This document shows positions 42,017-59,416 of a DNA stretch of 64,000 nt, piece after piece. Below the pieces are notes generated by a model, which did not search any database, was not told the DNA's origin, and worked only from the letters and a program-made list of their open reading frames with translations. The position numbers and the translations under genes are program-made. Numbering within the stretch: position 1 is the first letter of the stretch; each line of letters starts with the position of its first letter. This DNA comes from Nymphaea colorata (lineage: Eukaryota > Streptophyta > Magnoliopsida > Nymphaeales > Nymphaeaceae), in contig NC_045138.2 in the NCBI RefSeq assembly GCF_008831285.2, positions 21,549,934 to 21,613,933 of the forward strand, given 5' to 3'.

Positions 42017-45000
42017 TTATGGTAAATTTACTCCTCGTGTAGGACGGCATATATGGTTTCTTTTTCTCGCATGTTCTGCATTATGATGTTGAGTACGGCA
42101 AACCCAGCCATACCAGCAATCTTCTCTTATAGATGCATCCACTGGGAGAGCCTAAAAATACACACAAGCTAGTGAATATTCAGAATACATGATCTGAAGA
42201 GTCAGAGTTCAGGAAGCAAAAAGAAAAAAAGTTCCTCACGTTAGAGCAAGAAACTAAACAGAAAGAAACGAACTTTGAACATATAATATGAAACATTAGT
42301 TGTGGGCAGTACTGCAGCAGAAAAAGTTCAAGAAAATGGACAAAAACTGAAACAGCATCTGCATGACAACCTGTGGGACACATTTTGTAGGTATTAACAG
42401 CGTAAGTCCTAGAGGGCCATTGCTTGGTGCAACGGTATGCTGAGAGATCAGCCTTCATGTATGGGCTTAGGAAAATCGGTTACTCTCAAAACTAAACCTC
42501 AAAGAACTACCTGTAAAGATCAACATATAGTTTTAAATATATATTAAAGTAGTGGAAAATCTCCTTCAATGAAGACAGTTACCCAATGGCACAAGTAAAA
42601 TATAGATAAAAATCTATATTCATTAATTTCTCACACCAATAACTTCACAAAACAACACTCATAAATCATAATAGAAATGAAAGAGAGAAATTGTGCTCCA
42701 AGGTGCAAACAATATAAAATGAGCTCACAAACAACTTTAAAGAAGCTTACAGAATATGGGACAAACTCGTCCCCTAAATAAAGCTGAGAAAGAGACGATG
42801 GTGTCTCCAACATCTAGCCATTGGAGAGTATAAAGGCTCTCTCAACAGAGCAAACAAAATACTGAAAACAAAATAATAAAATACAGGAAGTAACAAAAGA
42901 AAATACAATATTGGTTATAATTCTTAAAACCCTCCCTCAAACTTATGTTGAAATCACCAAAAAATTGCTAGGAGGAAAAAAAATTGAGGACCCCCAAGCC
43001 TTTGGGTGAAGAAATTCGCTTTCACTAGAATTCTTATGTAACATACGGTAACCTAAGTCACAGATACAGGTACAGATGTCCTTTTTTTTTTCGGAGGGTT
43101 GGGGGGGGGAAGACAATTTCATAAATTGGGGATATGGGACAATTCTAACTATCAACCAAAAAAAAAGACCTTCAATCAATTTCAGGCAGGTCAAACACCA
43201 ATACAGCTTAACAGGAAAAAGGTGCAAAAGCAATATGAAGCGTAGACTAATATAAAGGGAGAGAAAGATTACTTGTTTGGGAATTGAAAGACGGAAGCAA
43301 TGTAGAAGATGTGCAACAACCTTGTTGCAACAATGGCTGCATAGCACAGAATCTCTCAGTGGAAGAAATAGACAAATAAGTCCAAAGACTATAAAGCAAT
43401 CAATTCTACATCTCGCAAAGATGGAACAGAACATAAACTTTCTCATAATTCCATGACTGGGACTGTTAAAGATACAAAAAAAGGGGTTTTCTGAAATATT
43501 AGGAAGTTAGGGAAGGTCTCTTTAAATGTTTTGTTACTTTTAGTGGACTTCTCTTGTAATTTTCCCTAACCCTAATCTCTTAATAGAGATTAGGGTCACG
43601 TAATGCTAGACAACTTTTTGCTGCCTCTCTCTCTCTCTCGTAACATGGTATCAGAGCGGGTGTGGGCGTCGACGGCAGAGTGCACTTTCCGGTGACCTTC
43701 TCCGGCGATCACCATCTTCTCCGACGAACAGCCAAGTGAGTTCGTTCCTTTTTTTTTTTTCTCTCGTTCTCTCCCTTGTCACCGCTACTCCTTATTCCCT
43801 CTTATCACCCAATAAGGAGACAGTGAGGGAATAGGGGTTGGGCGTGCCGTGAGAAGGAGGACCTGATCACGCCTATGTGGAAGGCGTGATCAGATCCTCA
43901 TATTGGTCGTATGAAGAGACTATTGTGGATGCAGCGTGACGTGTGACGCTGTGGTTTGTGATGATCGTAAATACAGTTTCGGTAAAGTCAAGCTGCGTGA
44001 GGTGTTGTGGATGCTTTGTGGAGTCTATGTGCTGCTTATAAATTCAGGTTTTTGAATATGATCAGATTTTTTCTATAGATCGTGGATACAAATTCAGTAA
44101 AGAAAGGCTGCGTGAGGACTGTTGCTGATCCTTAGTACAAGTTTTTGTTTGATTTCGTGGATTTCTTTGACACGTGGACAGGAAGTTTTATGAGAACTAG
44201 CTGCTGTTATAAGTGGCAGCAGTCTTCAGTCGTTGGGAGTTCATTCTTGTTTTTGTCATCGGCTAAATCAGATCTGAAGTGACAGTAATTTCCTAGCCCT
44301 CCTTCTTTAAACGTTTGCGTCAATCTGGTCTTCTTTATTTACTATGGCTGAAAACAGTAAATCTGAAGGGTCTACTAACTACAAGATGGCTGGGAATTCA
44401 TTCTCTTATGGAACCACGATGAAACTTAATGGCTCAAATTATGAAATATGGTCTAGGGTATTCATAATGTCGGTGGCTGGTCATAGGAAGAAATATATTT
44501 TTGAGGAGGATGAACCTATTGAGAAAAAAGGAATATATGCTGCGTGGGATGAAGATAATTATATTGTTATGTCTTGGATTATGAATAGTGTGGAGTCTCA
44601 TATAGCCCCAACTATTGCATATTATACCAAGGCCAAGGATATGTGGTCTTTCTTGAGAAAGACATACTCGCATGCCACTAATGTAATTAAGATCCTACAA
44701 CTAGAAGAGGAGTTATGCAACATTCGACAAGGGGATCAGGACCTATCTCAATATTTTGCTACTTTGACTGCTGCATATGAACGGTTAAAGGCTCTTCGCC
44801 CACCTTGCCAGCATTGTTATGCATCACACGTTGAGACTGGTATGGTGGCAAAGTTCTTATCTGGCCTATCTTCAGAATACTCTGTGGCAAAGTCTCAAAT
44901 TCTAACAGGCAGTGAACTTCCAGATTTAGCAGACACGTATAATAGGCTGAGTCGCTTTGCAGTCACTCTTTCTCAGACTACGCATGACATACCAGTCTCT

Positions 45001-48000
45001 GCACTTGTGATATCAGGAGGACGGGGCCCCAGTTCTTTTGGAGGCACTAGGGGGCGTGGTACAGGCCGTGGTGCTGGACGTGGCAGATTTCAGTGCTCTT
45101 ATTGTGGCAAAATTGGTCATCTAGAGGACCGTTGTTGGGACAAACATCCTCACCTCAGGTCTAATGTTTCCTCTGGACGTGGTGGAGGTAGAATCACCAC
45201 AAGCAGAGGTCCTTCTTCATCCCAGGCAACTCATTCAAAGACAACAATATCTATGGTTGAGTCTTCTACTGATCCTTCTATATCTATGTCATATTCTCTT
45301 AACCTAAGTAAGGATGAATATGATCGTGTTCTTGCTCAGAGGTCTGGCTCTACATCTGCCTCTACATCTACCAATGCTGCTGTTGTAGATTCAGCATTCT
45401 CTGTTGGTGCTCCTACTGCTGATCCAGGTATGACATGGATGATAGACTCGGGCGCTTCTAGACATTGTTGTAATCAACCACAAAATTTTTCATCATTTGT
45501 CAGATTTTCTACACCACAGTATGTTAAGCTGGCTGATGGCAAGTTGTCCCCTGTTTTGGGTAGCAGTGATATTTATCTTCCACATTTAGGCACTATTACA
45601 CATGTGCTATATGCACCTCAATTTCCTGTTAATTTGATATCTGTGAAGCAGCTAGCTATCGACTTACAATGTAAAGTCATTTTTGAATCTGACTCTTGTT
45701 CTTTTCAGGACTTACCAACTGGGAAGATGATTGGTGGCGGCCATGAGCGTGAGGGCCTTTATTTTTTGTCAATCCCAGTTGATGTTGCTGCATCTTCAGT
45801 CCCTTCCAAGCCTTCTCCCTTCCAATGGCATCTCAGATTGGGTCATCCGTCCGTACCAAAACTTCGTCGCATGTTTCCAGACATTCCTGCATCAGAGTCC
45901 TTCTTATGTGATGCCTGCCAGTTGGGCAAGCATACACGGAGCAGCTTTCCTTCGAGTCAGAGTCCATCGAGTCAGAGTCCTTTTGATCTCATTCATGTGG
46001 ATGTATGGGGTCCTAGTCGGGTTCCTTTTCGATCATGTTTTCGATATTATCTTGTTCTAGTTGATGATTTTACTAGAGTCAGTTGGGTTTTCTTGTTAAG
46101 GGAAAGATCTGAAGTCATATGTATTCTTCAAAAATTTATCAAGGAAATAAAAACTCAGTTTGGATTCATTGTCAAAAATATTCGCACTGATAATGCTCTT
46201 GAATTCAAGTCTTCCATTCTACTTCAGTTTTATGCCGACCATGGAATTCGACCTCAATATACTTGTCCACATACGTCCCAACAGAATGGTGTAGCCGAAC
46301 GCAAACATCGGCAACTCCTAAACGTAGCTCGTACCCTCATGTTACATTCTCACATGCCTGCCTATTTTTGGGGTGATGCTATCCTTACTGCGTGTTACCT
46401 CATTAATAGATTACCCTCTTCCTCCATTCAAGACCGTATTCCAATTCAAATTCTATATCCAGGGCGTTCATTATTTCATTTACCTCCCAAAGTTTTTGGA
46501 TGCACTTGCTTCGCACATATCCTAGGCCCGAACAAAAGCAAACTGGCTGCCCAAGCTATCAAATGTATCTTTATTGGCTATTCAGCTAATCAAAAGGGAT
46601 ACAAATGCTTTGATCCCGTGACCAAGAAAGACATTATCAGTGCGGATGTTACCTTCTTTGAGTCTCGTCCTTATTTCCCTCCGTCAAGTCCCTCTTCATC
46701 TGAGATGCATGCACCTATACCTCTTCCTATTCCACCAGTGTCACTTGAGTCATTTCCATCATCTCAACCTAGGTCACATGAACATTTTCTTGAGCCTCCG
46801 TTGGTTTACACTCGTCGTCTAGGTCCCTCTCTCAACCGTCCACCAGCATCGTCTCAAGAGGTAAGCTCTACTGATAAGACTGACTCAGGTTTAAGTGATG
46901 ACTATTCTGCAGCAGATCTCCCTATTGCTATTCGCAAGGGCAAGCGACAGTGTACCTTACATCCTATATCTAATTCTGTCTCTACTGCTCATCTGAGTAC
47001 ACACTTAGTACAGTTTGATCAAGCTTTATCTAGTCATGTTATCCCGTCCTCGCACCATCACGCCCTGTTAGATCCACGTTGGCGACAAGCTATGCAGGAG
47101 GAAATGGATGCTCTTCTTTCTCGGGAGACTTGGGATTTGGTAGACCCCCCAACACGCTGTGATGTGGTTGGCTCACGATGGGTATTCACCATCAAGTATC
47201 ATTCTGATGGGTCAGTTGAAAGGTTCAAGGCCCGTCTTGTCGCAAAAGGTTATACTCAGACTTATGGTGTTGACTTCTTTGAGACCTTTTCGCCTGTGGC
47301 CCGGTTGGGCACTATTCGCTTGATTATCTCTCTTGCTGTCCAACGAGAGTGGCCTCTTTTTCAATTGGATGTCAAAAATGCCTTTCTGTATGGAGACCTT
47401 TCTGAAATTGTTTATATGCAGCAACCACCTGGTTTTGAGCGACAAGGGGAGTGTTCCAAGGTATGCAAGTTAAAGAAGGCTATTTATGGACTCAAACAGA
47501 GTCCCCGTGCATGGTTCCAAAAGCTTACTGAAGTGTTATCTAAGTGTGGATTTAGCCGATCCCAACTTGATCACTCATTGTTTATCAAGCGAGGCTCAGC
47601 AGGACTTGTGATATTGATTGTCTACGTGGATGATATTGTTCTTACAGGGGAAAATGATCAAGAGATAGCTCAAACAAAGGAGTTTTTACAGCAACACTTT
47701 GTTACGAAAGACCTTGGACAACTTCGTTATTTTCTTGGTATTGAGGTGGCTCGTAGTAATAAAGGAGTTGTAGTGTCTCAAAGGAAATATGCTCTTGATC
47801 TTCTACAGGAAACAGGACTATTGGGGGCTAAACCTGCCACACTTCCCATGAATCCTCGCATTCATATACATGATGATGACTCAGAGCCGTTTGACTCTAG
47901 ATCTTACAGATCTCTGATAGGGAAACTGTTATATTTGACTGTCACTCGTCCCGACATTAGCTTTGCTGTGAATAAGTTGAGCCAATTCATGGAAAAACCC

Positions 48001-51000
48001 CGAAAAGTTCACTGGGATGCAGCTCTAATGATTGTAAGATACTTGAAATCAGCCCCGGGAAAGGGGCTATGGTTCAAGAAAGGAGAATGTGTTGACATCG
48101 AGGCGTATAGTGATGCTGATTATGCTGGATCTGTAGATGATAGGAAGTCTACTACCGGGTTTTGTGTCTTTGTGGGCGGTAATCTTATTTCCTGGAGGAG
48201 CAAGAAGCAGAATGTTGTGGCTCGTTCTAGTGCTGAGTCAAAATATAGAGCTATGGCTCAAACTATGGCTGAAATGTCGTGGGTTAGATCACTACTTGTA
48301 GAGTTGGATGTCTCAGTGAATCTCCCAATGAAGATGTATTGTGACAACAAGGCAGCTACATATATCGCTAACAATCCTGTCTTCCATGAGCGGACTAAAC
48401 ACATTGAAGTGGATTGCCACTATATTCGGGACTTAGTTCAAGGAGGAATTGTTAGCACTATTCATGTCTCCTCAGAAGATCAGGCAGCAGATATTCTCAC
48501 TAAAGCTCTTCCCATAGGCGATTTCCTGAGATGTTGTAACAAGCTGAGCATGATTGACATATATGCTCCAGCTTGAGGGGGAGTGTTAAAGATACAAAAA
48601 AAGGGGTTTTCTGAAATATTAGGAAGTTAGGGAAGGTCTCTTTAAATGTTTTGTTACTTTTAGTGGACTTCTCTTGTAATTTTCCCTAACCCTAATCTCT
48701 TAATAGAGATTAGGGTCACGTAATGCTAGACAACTTTTTGCTGCCTCTCTCTCTCTCTCGTAACAGGGACATTTGAGATTTTTTCCACCTTGATTTTGAG
48801 AAAACAGAATTATTTTTGACATTATAAATAATTTTTATCTTTTACTTAGCTGCACTCTGGTCAAAGAAGACCTTTGACAAAACTGGAGCCAGACGTTGGT
48901 TTAGCCCATTCTGCTTCTTCTGACTTCTATACATAGTTCATTTCTTCTCAATTTAAATATTCTTCCTTCAGCCATCTTTTCTTAATAAAATTGTTATTCT
49001 TTAGTTGTTATCTTTGTGGCTTCTTGCACAAGAGTAATCATGAGAAGTATTATGTGCTCTTTGTGAACTACTTTTGAGTTAAGATACTCCTCAAGTCTTT
49101 TTGTGACTTGATCATATTATTTGGAGGCAATCTTCACAAAGGTTGCCTCACACTGATACCATGGAGCTTTTGTGGTGAACCAATACTACTTGAAGTTAGC
49201 ACAGTTGACTTCCTTTTTTAATCTTAGAAAGTCCAAAGTCTCAATTAAAATAATATTTTACCACAAATGCCATATCATATTCTAAGGAAATACTGTATTA
49301 TCAACATGGATAAAAATGTGTAGAAGGTCTAGAAGGAACTTACTCGCAGAGATAGGTGTTTGAAGTTATTGAGTCGATGTTATTTAACATCATACCCATG
49401 GGCTCTGCAAGGTTAGCAGGAAACACATAATCAACAATAAAATTTGATTGCATAACAAGATGCATAATGAGATGCGATAGCAACATGAAGAAAAATCATC
49501 ATGAGTTATTCAGCAATTTGACAATTAATATCGAGTTCACAAGATGGTTCAGTTCTAGCATGAAAGAGGCCACATTTTACAAACGATAATCCTACCAGGC
49601 TACCACAAAGTGAAGACCTTAGTTTCCGAGCTAGTTTGATAAACTTGGCGGTCAACCGACTAGACCATGGGCACAAAATTGGAAGAATGCAATTTTATAG
49701 ACTAGCCAATTGACTTGTGGACCAACTAGTCATTACACTAACTGTAATAATCTTCTCGCAGTTGATAACTCCTGTAAGCTAGATTATGGGTATAAAAGGG
49801 TCCACTACCCTGGGCAAAGTGCACGGGTTGCCAATCACTTGGGAGCCCGGTGACTAAGGCCAAATGGGCATTCTTTGGAGATACAACAAAGGATGCAAGG
49901 CAAGTCTTAGGAGGCAGACATGACTTGGCTTCAGTGGGGTGAATGCAAGGTGCTTGTGGAGAAGACAGCTTGCTGGATGAGACCACGTGTTTGAATTTTA
50001 GCACACACAAGCCAACACTGGCCAAGCTGATGGGCAGCCAATAGAAGCTCTGGTTCATTGGCCTTGAAAAAATTCCCATCCTGCAAAAAGCATCTCGATA
50101 TAAGAATCAGTGGGGTGCTAAGCCAATAAGAAAGTAGCTGAAAGCAAGTCCATGCATCGGCCTGTTCAACAGCACTTGCAGATTGGCTTGTAGAACATGC
50201 CAAGGAATTGCGATAAGAGATCAAGCATGACTCTGTGCTTGACATAAAAGCAGCTCATTAAGATTTATGCATGCTGGCATTCTTGGCAAGGGAGATGGTA
50301 AAACCCTAGTCCTTTCAAAAGACACAGCCTTGGGGTGGGGCCACATGGTAGTGCAGTTGTTGCATGTGGTTTTTCACACTTGTAAATGGTTAAGAACAAT
50401 GTAACTCTGAAAGCTTTATATAGCTACCCAGAAGGCCCTTGAGGGGGTATATGGGAAGGAGAATTGTACAACACAAGGTTCAATAAGGAATAATGCCTCA
50501 GCCTTAAACCATTTGGTGTTGTGTTGGTTGTCTTTTGCCTTAATTTGTATTTTGGAGCAAGGACTTGCTTGTCTGACAGCTGCTTAGGTTAAAAGATGAA
50601 CCTGAGTTCTCATAAATACATGCCAATGAGGTGGTACCTATCTCTCTGTTGTCAAACTTTAAACACCAGGCCATGATAACATCTTGTAATGTCTTCCCAC
50701 TTTGAGCTATACATCTTTGAGTGACCTGCCGAAAGCATAATTGCAAAATGTGAAAGGAATACGACAAATGAAAAATTTCATAAAACTGTACAAAGAGAAA
50801 AAGCTACATACGCCTTGCTCATATGTGTTTCCTTCATGTGTAGACTCAGGCATTCTGGTAAAAACACGATCTGATATCTGTATAGTGTGCACAACATACA
50901 TCACATGATTAGAAAAACAAAGGCGTACCATGAACATTGATTCAAGCATAGGAATCAAGTATAGCAACAAACTGTAGCAAAATTCAGGACTGTTACTGTG

Positions 51001-54000: not shown

Positions 54001-57000
54001 TGCTCAGTTGGTTTTATTCCAGCCAGAAGTCTATTTCTAGGTTAATTCCGGCCAGCAGGTTTGATTTCATCATAGCCAGCCTTGTCTTGTTGAAATCAAG
54101 CCCAACTGCAGCCTCTTAATGCTTAATTATGTTACTGTTAGTTGTAGAAAGTTCATATTTATTGCCTTCTAGATTTCATTACTTGTCAGATTCAAATCGA
54201 CATGTTAGCTGATTGCTTGAAGTTTGCATTCTGTTTTACTTCTTGAATATTGTTTTGTTTACGTAGTTAGGACAATTACTCTATCATGTACTTCTCGTTT
54301 ATATTTAGATTAGATCTGGGATAGGTGTATGGGAGACTTATGAGTAGTTAATTAATTAGGTTGCCTCTAAGTCACAGCGGTACATGGTACGGTGGTACAC
54401 TTTGGTACGTTTGGTTCGGTTCCAGGTCAAAACCGACCCAAACCATTTAAATCACACATGTTTGCCAAAGCCTCTGCCCAACACTTCTTCCTCCGTTTTA
54501 CGTACCTTCAGCCATCAATCTCCTCCAATGGATGGCAGTGGAGAGCTTCACCGGCCAGTGGCGACCGCCGATGGACACCAACTGGTGAGGTAAGTTTTTT
54601 TTCCTTACGTTTTCATCAGTTTCCCTTTTTTCTTGTGTTTCTATGTTAGACAGTTGGACGCTTGTTTGATGTTTCTCTGTCGTTCTTACTTAATTTTAAT
54701 TTGGTAACTGCATTGAAAACGTGATGAACTCCATTTTGCCGTGTTTTTCTTTTATATTTGTATTACTTTTTTTGCTGGTTCCTTTTATATTTGAACTGCC
54801 GAATTAGTTATTCACCTCTTTTGCTAGCTTCATTTATATTTGCCGTGTTTTTTTATGCTGAGTGATTTTTTTTTTAATTTTCTGCTTTCGTGGAATTTTG
54901 CATATATACTTTTTTTTTGCATACCCTTACCTATATCAATGATTTCTTGATAATTTTATTGATCTTAAAGTAGCCGTTGTCTTCTAGATTTTAGGTTAGT
55001 TTAAACCTGCAGGCTGCAGCTTTTCATAAGTTTGTAACTTTATATCAAATTTCATTTAGTCAACATTCCATTGGTCAAAGGATTTAGCAGTCTTCTAAGG
55101 TCAGGTTAGATAAACCAATATATTTTTTTATTAGCCGATTAGAATGTTCCAGTAAAGAATATAATAGATATATATAGTTTAACCTAGTATTACTTCTTTT
55201 CTTGCGATTTCTTTTCCTTTAATATCAAATTTTTTGTTGGCTTTGCAGAACAGGGAATATATATATCCGGAGGAGGGTAGGCTGAGGTGGAGAATCGGAA
55301 GTTAGTTCGGTCTGAACCCTGGACCTTAGAAGCGGCTGACAACACTAGAGATTTAGGTGCTTAGATTCCTGTTTTTATTCAATTTAAGCAGTTGAGTAGT
55401 AATTATTTTATTCCAAGTCACAGGTAGTTTAGGCCTTATTTTCGCTCTTGCAAAAGTAAAACTGAGTTATTAGTTTAAGTTTAATAATGTGGCATTTAGT
55501 ATCATCGACACAAATTTCAGATCAATTTTGGTATATCACATTCCCTGTGGATTTGAACCACCTTGCCACTCTACATGAGTGTATCTGTATGAGCTGGTTA
55601 ATGTATTGACATGTGGTTCTAAGCTGGTTTTCATAAAAAAAGCATTTCCAAAGTTTTTTTTCTTATCAATCTTTCATACTAATTGAATCATATGGACACA
55701 ATCCTGAAAATGATATCATATTTTGCAAAAAAGTGGCTCCAAGTAGCATTCAGGTTCAAACATTGATTAACAAAATATGCAAAGACATACATAAAGAAGA
55801 ATTCGTTCTATATTACACAATAATTATTTAAAGAGAAACATGGGAAGGTAAAATTACTTTTGAAGACTATAATTATCCTACATGTTTAGAAAAATGACAG
55901 TTAGTGCCTACAGAATAGATTTGCTTTATAAGTAACATATGGCCACACAGTCATGTATGTATGAGTGAAAGGTAATAGCACTTACTGGCCTAAAAGTTCC
56001 TGGGCTACAAAGCCCACTGGCATTGTCATCACTTACACCTTGAGCCTGCCAATAAGCTGCACAAAATGATCTATCACATCCTACACCTGCAAATGTTAGT
56101 TAGCTTAGAAGCACGTTGTGACAAAAAATAAACTGGAAAGGCAAATTGCAGATTAGAAAATCTTCCTGCTTTTGCTTCCCTTGCAGGAACCAGAAAAGGA
56201 ATGACTACTTTTTATTTTGATATCATCCTGATATAAACTAATGTCAAGTACTGGTTTAGAAAATTTAGAGGCTCATTCTAAGACTTCAAAGATTCAGATA
56301 AAATTCAGTAAATCAGGTTCCTAATAGGAAAGGACTAAATTGTGAACCAATGATTACAGAATGTAATTAATTCTTGTCCTCGGAATACCTTTCAGAAATT
56401 CTAATTAAATATTTGCAATGATTGGTTCTTCAATAGAATTGAACAGCAATAATAATTTTTAATAGATCTCAAATAAATACTTTTGTGAATATAAGAAAGT
56501 TAAAGTCTCCAAAATGACTGAAATATTTGACTTCGGACAAGCTTATCTAACAGGACAGACTAAGTCATAAATTAAGAAAACAACAGGTCCCTTCACTTAT
56601 GAGATCAAAATTAAACTATACATACTAAAATGCTCATGTTTTTGAATTTTTTGTCAAGATAGATTATACAATTAAGCAGATCAAAATAACAAGTGAAGGA
56701 CTAGTTGCAACTTGCAACCAACAGTTTGGTGTCAATTAAAAAAAAAAAAGCTTCTGTGGAGTTAGATGCCAAAATATTTCAGAAATGATACATAAGGCCA
56801 ACCCAGTTCTAGTTTTCTGTATGAGATTCTAACATAAATGGCTTCACAAGGCTTTATACAACCTCAAAATCAACTAGACCATTGCTGTTGAAAGCAGCAA
56901 TCAGATAAAAGGGATGAGTTTTGTTGTAAGGAAAGACTCTACATGATGTCTTTTGCTTGCACATAATAAAAGATTGTTTTAAAGTAAACTATCGCAACAC

Positions 57001-59416
57001 ATGCTTGGCTCATTCAAGGTGACCTCAATTTATATATGTCATGACAAGCTCTAACAAACAGGTTGATTATGCAGTGAAAAGTTCACTTGGAAGTTCCAGG
57101 CTTCCTAGTCACAGGCTTTGCACATACAACCACCTAGGTGCCTAGGCAACATGTTAGGGAGTGAAACCAAAGGTATTGTTTTCTTGTTTGGGTTTGTAAT
57201 GCTTTAAAAAATCACAATACACATGGCTCATCCAATTGTTTTTTTTTATGTGGTTTTCCAATTTAGTTTTTCTTTTTAGGCTAACCTCAGAATCTATGTC
57301 ACATGGGTACTCCTCTTAAGGAGGAGTACCCGTATGGTACGGGTACGTCCCTGGTGCGGTCAACGCAGTACCAGGTACGGTCAACATACCCGAGACCATT
57401 TTTGTCCATTTTCGGACTCGGTCAACTTTGACCAAGTCTAAAGTTGTCCAGTTTTTTAGTTGAAAACTAAAAATCCCCCTCTTTTCTTGTTTCCTTTTTC
57501 ACTCTAAACCTTTCTTGTACATAGTTCCTGACAACTTTTCATTTAAAATCTTCCATACAAAAATTCATTCCTTCTCTATAACTTGACTCTTCGATAATAG
57601 TGTGAGACATAACCATAGCGATGTCAATATATCTTAAAAGCGTGACCTGTTGCTCCTTCTAATCTTGATGATGCGACGGAGAATCAAGAAAGCTGATATA
57701 TTTGTATGTTAATCACTTTCATACTGTGTTTTGTGAATATGTTATTCATTTTGAAATTTTTTGACATATATATGTCTGCGTGTGTGTATGGCCGTACCCC
57801 TGCACCCAAATTTTTTGAAAATGGTCCGTACCCGTACCCCCACCGGTACCCGTACCTGCACCTGTACCCGTACCTATGTGACATAGCTCATAATAGAGAG
57901 TTTGTTTTAACAGCTTTTCTTTTCGTCACAACTTAAATACTAATTATGGTTGTTGTTTCAACTTTCAAGGGTCAATCTATTCACTCTCCTAGGCAATATT
58001 TTTGCCTTGTCACTAATAAATTGACTACTTAAACTCATGTTTAATCAATTTGATCTCCCAACCCAATTGGGGGCAAAAGCCTATGAAAAGATCGTTTGGA
58101 TTTATGAAAGGGTTGCTTGAAAGACATGCCACTTAGATTGTGGCACTTCAACCAACTCAGGCATGGCCACGTGGGTTTTGGGTGTGCTAGAAAAAATCAA
58201 CCAGGTATGATATTTTTTGTTTCATGCAAACAATCAAGTGTTAAATTTATATAATCACAACTATTACCTGTGACTGTATACACACGGTAGGCTAGCCCAA
58301 TTAATCCGGCCCAGGCTTCTTCAAAGGCTTGGAGCATTGACTACCATTTTTTGCTACTTAGGTATAGCACAAAGTAGACTCAAGGTGTGGCCCTCAATAA
58401 ACAATTCAGACAGAAGGCTTGCACAGGGCAAGCATCATTCAAAAGTCAAACAATTACTTTTCTCTAGGTTAACATTGTAATAAATGACAACAGGCTTCAA
58501 CAACTCTTTGAAAATGGAAATTAACACTGTGTACTTTTCTCTAGGTTAACATTGTAATAAATGATGACAGGCTTCAACAACTCTTTGAAAATGGAAATTA
58601 ACCCTAACTGTAGCATACCAATGTAAGTATTCAAGATGCAATTCCAAACATCTATACAGAATTAACAAGAAATATGCTTAGAGCACCAGAATGATCCAAC
58701 TTTTATAGGAAAATTTTACATGCCAACATACATATCAGAACCATTAACTGCAAACTGGGAGATTGCTTAAGCAGAAATTAGGAAAATAAGAAACATTCAA
58801 ATAATGAAATTATTTAAACAATTTGGGGTTCTCTACATACATTTTGTGTGATATAAAGCTATGGACACAGGTCCATCATGACTCTGTTTTCAAACGGAAA
58901 AAAAGAAAAGAAAAGAAAAGAGTCAAAGGTAGGAAACTAAGATGCAAATCACAGAAAAAAACTTGAGTTGGTAAATCTACAACTTACAATGTTGTGGAAC
59001 ACCAATCTCAGGTCTCAAGGGCATCATGTGCCCACATCCATGGCATTGTCTATGGCCAGTATTCGGGCTGCATCTAAATCCACCAAAACCAGTGCCAACT
59101 GCATAAAATAGCCTTAGTACATATAACATAAAATACATGCATTGGATTACCTAGATAAAATCACTTATTGAGTACAGCATCAACTTCAAAAGATCTCCAT
59201 AAATGAAAGTTATACATAGAACAGAAACACATGCGCACAACCACAAGAACATGTGCCCAATTCGTGGACACACAAGCTGTTAGGCGCAGGCCTAACACTG
59301 TCTTGCTCATGTCTTTACGTTTTTACTTCTGTTTCTGTTTCAGCACTCACAGGTAGTTCACGGGTCGGGTCACTAGTTAGGTCATGTAATAAACCCACCC
59401 ACTCAGCACAAGATAC

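Follow-up and report, generated by a model that had tools for sequence, protein, structure and literature searches.

In plants, retrotransposons of the Ty1/copia superfamily share a common plan, namely a single gag-pol frame in which integrase comes before reverse transcriptase, long terminal repeats (LTRs) with TG...CA ends, a 5-bp target-site duplication (TSD), a primer-binding site and a polypurine tract. For the RNase H of such elements we used Ty3, a gypsy-type element that serves here only as a biochemical yardstick. A review (PMC5371799) names D358, E401, D426 and D469 as critical residues, reports that the E401Q change abolished RNase H activity, and describes the enzyme as clearing the RNA template and leaving the plus-strand primer. 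We analysed a stretch of 64,000 nucleotides of Nymphaea colorata (contig NC_045138.2, 21,549,934 to 21,613,933; hereafter the window, whose own positions are used below), in which an element at 43464–48765 lies within a CHFR-like gene. This element is an ordinary Ty1/copia LTR retrotransposon copy of an already known kind. Its overall plan is unchanged relative to the superfamily, yet it has lost the RNase H glutamate. We consider it very likely that it is a recent antisense insertion into a CHFR-like intron, complete in appearance, in which this glutamate has become a lysine and which probably cannot copy itself unaided.

The assembly (407.8 Mb, 783 contigs) was searched for copies of the family. 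The LTR search scored 40 places among 365 candidates, and the search with the RNase H stretch scored 150 places among 10023 candidates, 45 of which, the window copy included and some on unplaced contigs, showed at least 95% identity (rounded). Fifteen full copies (L009-L014, L017-L022 and L025-L027) were compared with the window copy, making 16 in all; two interrupted copies (L015/L016 and L023/L024) and an isolated LTR sequence (L028) did not enter this set. Aligned bases of the 15 were 99.28 to 99.72% identical to the window copy, the nearest relative showing 15 differences over 5300 sites. Among the eight copies printed, window included, a 23-column gap in the leader was common to the window copy, L009, L010 and L011. 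An earlier note on this DNA, made from the letters alone, had proposed looking for near-identical copies elsewhere in the genome, and such copies are indeed present. Judged from these sequences, the family has expanded recently, and as a whole it makes a good candidate for a recently active family of Nymphaea colorata.

The gag-pol open reading frame of the window copy (44344–48576, + strand) is a single, unbroken frame of 1410 codons plus a stop, as the earlier note had stated. The same note had seen all visible catalytic residues in it and called the element apparently autonomous. We compared 21 hallmark residues, chosen from known motifs of protease, integrase, reverse transcriptase, RNase H and others. 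All 15 full relatives had 21/21 and were identical to one another at these positions, whereas the window copy had 20/21 and departed solely at residue 1300 (codon 48241–48243, + strand), the position that corresponds in alignment to the catalytic glutamate of RNase H, where it carries lysine and the 15 others keep glutamate. Thus, an unbroken frame was found, but not a full set of catalytic residues, and autonomy was not supported. Of the 150 RNase H places, 70 were then read, namely the 30 top-ranked ones and 40 picked from lower ranks, the window copy being counted among them. In the 69 other copies, residue 1300 was glutamate in 68 and a stop in one (L071), and lysine was never seen. Elsewhere in the D-E-D-D set, the second D was lost in 1/70 and the third in 2/70. 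In nine aligned rows, window included and reaching down to 37% identity, the glutamate was missing in the window copy alone; it was carried even by rows at 51%, 37% and 37% identity, which came respectively from another element of the genome, a plasmid record and a genome bin. That lysine might mark a sub-lineage was considered and rejected, given its absence from the 69 other copies read; 80 of the 150 places were unread.

Pfam assigned no family, even at E 10, to the last 208 residues of the polyprotein, and the RNase H part was therefore analysed by comparison. The RNase H stretch (48052–48573, + strand), which has no Pfam match of its own, retains D1257, D1334 and D1383 and has its E replaced. 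Gypsy-type RNase H stretches were drawn from the same genome; four of six were aligned and then matched to the PDB, and their profile aligned to Ty3 in entries 7q5b and 4ol8 (E 1.1e-20 and 2.5e-20). By manual count, E401 of Ty3 falls on the second E of ELEL, and an offset of 2 along 4ol8 brings D358, E401 and position 426 into register; position 426 is N in 4ol8 and D in 7q5b, and the N was used to check the count. In the copia-to-gypsy alignment, K1300 stood opposite the invariant E that corresponds to Ty3 E401, and D1334 opposite the 426 column. The window element thus shares with Ty3 (4ol8) a D-E-D-D site of which the changed position aligns to E401, and in each of them the E follows the D by 43 residues (358 to 401 in Ty3, 1257 to 1300 here). 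From this register we infer that position 1300 is the site of the catalytic glutamate. Since E401Q eliminated activity in Ty3 and K1300 aligns to E401, lysine at 1300 should disable RNase H.

Several observations weigh against this reading. The copia-to-gypsy profile match was by itself non-significant (probability 0.15%, E 0.38). Against the PDB, the copia RNase H profile gave, in one search, bacterial-type RNase H as weak top matches (4h8k, E 0.54); a wider copia profile gave no RNase H match in the PDB, and no usable alignment was obtained between bacterial RNase HI and the copia RNase H. A single-sequence fold of the stretch was uninformative (mean pLDDT 35.1), leaving the site without structural support. 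The neighbouring glutamate 1298 was kept in 67/70 copies, as compared with 68/70 for residue 1300, and was invariant in the nine aligned rows; because both are about equally conserved, the choice of 1300 over 1298 as catalytic depends on the Ty3 register. A miscalled base in the assembly could also account for lysine 1300, and that RNase H activity has presumably been lost in the window copy is argued by analogy with Ty3.

We also weighed the view of the earlier note, namely that the window copy is fully competent, the lysine being either an assembly or sequencing error or a tolerated change. The remaining frame is unbroken, 20/21 hallmark residues are standard, and its two LTRs are the same as in another recent copy, all of which would fit competence. 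Yet the lysine is unique among the 70 RNase H copies read and is aligned to the Ty3 residue whose change to Q abolished activity according to the review cited above (PMC5371799). Moreover, the window copy has 10 changes over 5298 sites that are absent from all 15 other full copies (private changes; seven non-synonymous, three synonymous). Nine of the ten are transitions from G:C to A:T, two of them in CG, two in CHG and five in CHH contexts, a pattern that fits cytosine decay and copying errors alike and does not discriminate between them. With other private changes present and nine of the ten being of one mutational kind, a real mutation at codon 1300 needs no special cause. We therefore regard a fully competent copy as quite unlikely.

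We favour instead the following scenario for an RNase H-deficient copy. A reverse transcriptase of the family would have copied a parent RNA, and the product would have inserted at GGGAC within the CHFR-like intron. As for the lysine, it may have come from an unsampled parent, or have arisen during copying or later. The window copy would in principle be transcribable, but its own product would be without RNase H, and its own reverse transcriptase would then be unable to remove the RNA template or to leave the polypurine primer. The copy would thus have been born dead or have died after insertion, and any further movement would need an enzyme supplied by siblings. A more elaborate possibility is that such an RNase H-dead, otherwise complete copy is copied in trans by intact siblings, or that it poisons mixed particles and so damps the family; we give this little credence. 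Should the source RNA have carried the lysine from the start, this very insertion would record trans-copying. The case illustrates that an unbroken frame with identical LTRs, often taken to mean "autonomous and very young", can be misleading, and that a residue-by-residue check against genome siblings exposes a perfect-looking yet probably inactive copy.

The age of the insertion was considered next to that of its siblings. A substitution rate of 7e-9 is in use for plants. PMC10025401 gives rates of 1.3e-8 (grasses) and 1.5e-8 (other plants). The two LTRs of the window element (43464–43645 and 48584–48765) agree at 182/182 bases, as the earlier note had described, and zero differences over 182 bp cap the age, as a 95% bound, at ~633 thousand years for a rate of 1.3e-8 and at 1176 thousand for 7e-9. 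Because 182 bp cannot separate zero from several hundred thousand years, LTR identity is weak proof of extreme youth. With a rate of 1.3e-8, the 10 private changes yield 145 thousand years (70-267), and with 7e-9 they yield 270 thousand (129-496), on the presumption that every private change came after insertion; private changes also take in copying errors and unsampled source lineages. In the 15 other full copies, private changes numbered 0 to 17, being fewer than 10 in ten copies, equal in one and more in four. The total of 121 over 16 copies would, were every one of them later than insertion, predict ~8 LTR-to-LTR substitutions, as compared with 2 seen. This suggests that the true ages are lower, unless conversion between LTRs erased differences, and that the private-change age of ~0.15 million years (0.07-0.27) is probably an overestimate.

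An LTR pair free of substitutions was found in 14 of the 16 copies (two of them with an indel), among them copies whose private changes number as many as 17, and one substitution was present in each of the other two. The insertion is thus recent, as are those of its family, among which it does not stand out: of the "very young" age that had been read from LTR identity, recency stands while exceptional youth does not. A far older insertion, whose LTR identity would result from conversion between the LTRs or from their short length, seems highly unlikely to us. The bounds given by 182 identical bases do leave room for it (~633 thousand years, or 1176 thousand at the slower rate), and conversion in plant LTR pairs is on record, PMC7251063 giving potential conversion in 25% of them. 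On the other hand, the whole element has just 10 private changes in 5298 sites with its 1410-codon frame unbroken, and the 2 LTR substitutions seen instead of ~8 over the 16 copies make private changes seem to overstate age, with the caveat that conversion would also have reduced the observed 2.

The siblings varied in their state of preservation. The frame was unbroken and stop-free over all 1410 residues in 6/15 relatives, whereas stops, frameshifts or insertions disrupted it in the nine others. An exact TSD was found in 14 of the 15, the exception being L009, and the same 15 bases of primer-binding site in 14 of the 15, L026 differing. L009 (G000:C2:11997163-12002862), the closest of the 15, has both LTRs identical to those of the window copy; its flanks read AAATC against AGGCA, with no target duplication, and this lack of matching flanks suggests recombination or flank loss. 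In L015/L016 and L023/L024, two family copies apparently contain an insertion of another copia element, whose RNase H is ~50% identical and which was probably also active recently.

The anatomy of the window element bears out its assignment to Copia in the earlier note. The 5' LTR (43464–43645, +, 182 bp, TGTTA...TAACA) and the 3' LTR (48584–48765, +, of the same sequence) are flanked by exact copies of GGGAC (43459–43463 and 48766–48770, no strand), which is the 5-bp TSD that had been reported. When the window was compared with itself at E 1e-5, only two repeat pairs appeared besides the LTRs, one of 27 and one of 74 bases, and an exact 182-base repeat bounded by a TSD is therefore not chance. 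The primer-binding site TGGTATCAGAGCGGG (43646–43660, +), which we take to be that of the initiator methionine tRNA, consists of 15 bases directly after the 5' LTR. It is followed by an untranslated leader (43661–44343, +) that extends to the gag-pol frame, and a polypurine tract (48576–48583, +) adjoins the 3' LTR. Direct LTRs with TG...CA ends, the TSD, and a correctly placed primer-binding site and polypurine tract were thus all found. Along the frame, Pfam gave Retrotran_gag_2, Pol_BBD, gag_pre-integrs, rve, SH3_retrovirus and RVT_2, in that order. The integrase core rve (45976–46275, +; residues 545-644, E 4.7e-11) has D553 and D616, with E652 just past the matched stretch, and the reverse transcriptase RVT_2 (47125–47853, +; residues 928-1170, E 2.7e-75) has D1009 and DD1096-1097. 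As integrase lies upstream of an RVT_2-type reverse transcriptase in one polyprotein, the element is copia-type. A Gag CCHC zinc knuckle (45094–45135, +) and a protease D-S-G (45445–45453, +) were also located, both by their known motifs. Reading by eye, we noticed in the LTR a perfect inverted repeat, CCCTAATCTCT-TAAT-AGAGATTAGGG (~43569-43594, and again in the 3' LTR), which overlaps a telomere-like CCCTAACCCTAA.

The host gene is encoded on the strand opposite to the element, and the element lies within one of its introns. Its model is based on homology and reading frame and covers exons up to ~59 kb. A host peptide joined by hand from five exon pieces and then searched matched zf-CRD, the CHFR cysteine-rich domain (E 5.3e-24), and the human CHFR structure 2xoc (E 1.3e-09), confirming the earlier placement of the element inside a CHFR-like gene; for the PBZ zinc finger, zf-CCHH scored 14.9 bits against a cut-off of 22.7. 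Parts of zf-CRD were also recognized in two open stretches on the minus strand, 58980–59150 (E 7.5e-11) and 55929–56099 (E 0.0024, alone below the family cut-off). The intron containing the element, as predicted from reading frame and homology, spans 43353–50637 (−), between an upstream exon at 50638–50725 (−, with a predicted start) and a downstream exon at 43273–43352 (−, with predicted ends); the C-terminal exon (42030–42151, −, with a provisional end) encodes ...RNHICRPTR. The exon pair flanking the element joins in frame, from last exon base 50638 to first exon base 43352, the latter being supported by the match to DTVLC of human CHFR. An acceptor at CAG ~43337, 127 bases away, was rejected, as it would drop the residues aligned to DTVLC. 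Hence, the distance of ~127 bases that the earlier note gave between the left end and the splice acceptor becomes ~106 by homology and reading frame, with 106 intron bases from the TSD to the downstream exon and 111 from the LTR.

This geometry bears on whether the insertion alters how the CHFR-like gene is spliced or expressed. The intron is of phase 1 and measures 7285 bp, or 1978 bp after removal of the element and one TSD copy; such growth, and an element ~106 bases from the acceptor, would speak for an effect. Branch points usually lie 18-50 nt before the acceptor. The element is antisense, and the acceptor, the near upstream sequence and the reading frame across the intron are all intact. 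Since it is intronic, antisense and upstream of the usual branch-point zone, concern for splicing is weaker than the earlier note had put it. An effect on the gene appears unlikely to us, and the insert is probably spliced out together with the intron. An empty allele was sought in the assembly with the left flank, whose single full match was its own place. Six partial matches of 63-141 bases at 71-83% identity were also obtained with this flank: the stretch ~42902-43051 beside the element recurs partly at six other places of the genome and is perhaps an old short dispersed repeat. A direct duplication of 74 bp, 96% identical, is present at 58455-58605 near the CHFR-like exons.

Relatives of the element were also sought outside the genome. 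None was found in viral contigs or in phages, species genomes gave one distant relative (L101), and four plasmid records matched. Two of the latter, L099 (NZ_CP115454.1) and NZ_CP115302.1, are short "plasmid" records of Kitasatospora and Streptomyces that carry a copia-type reverse transcriptase at 38.6% identity, and they look like eukaryotic contamination.

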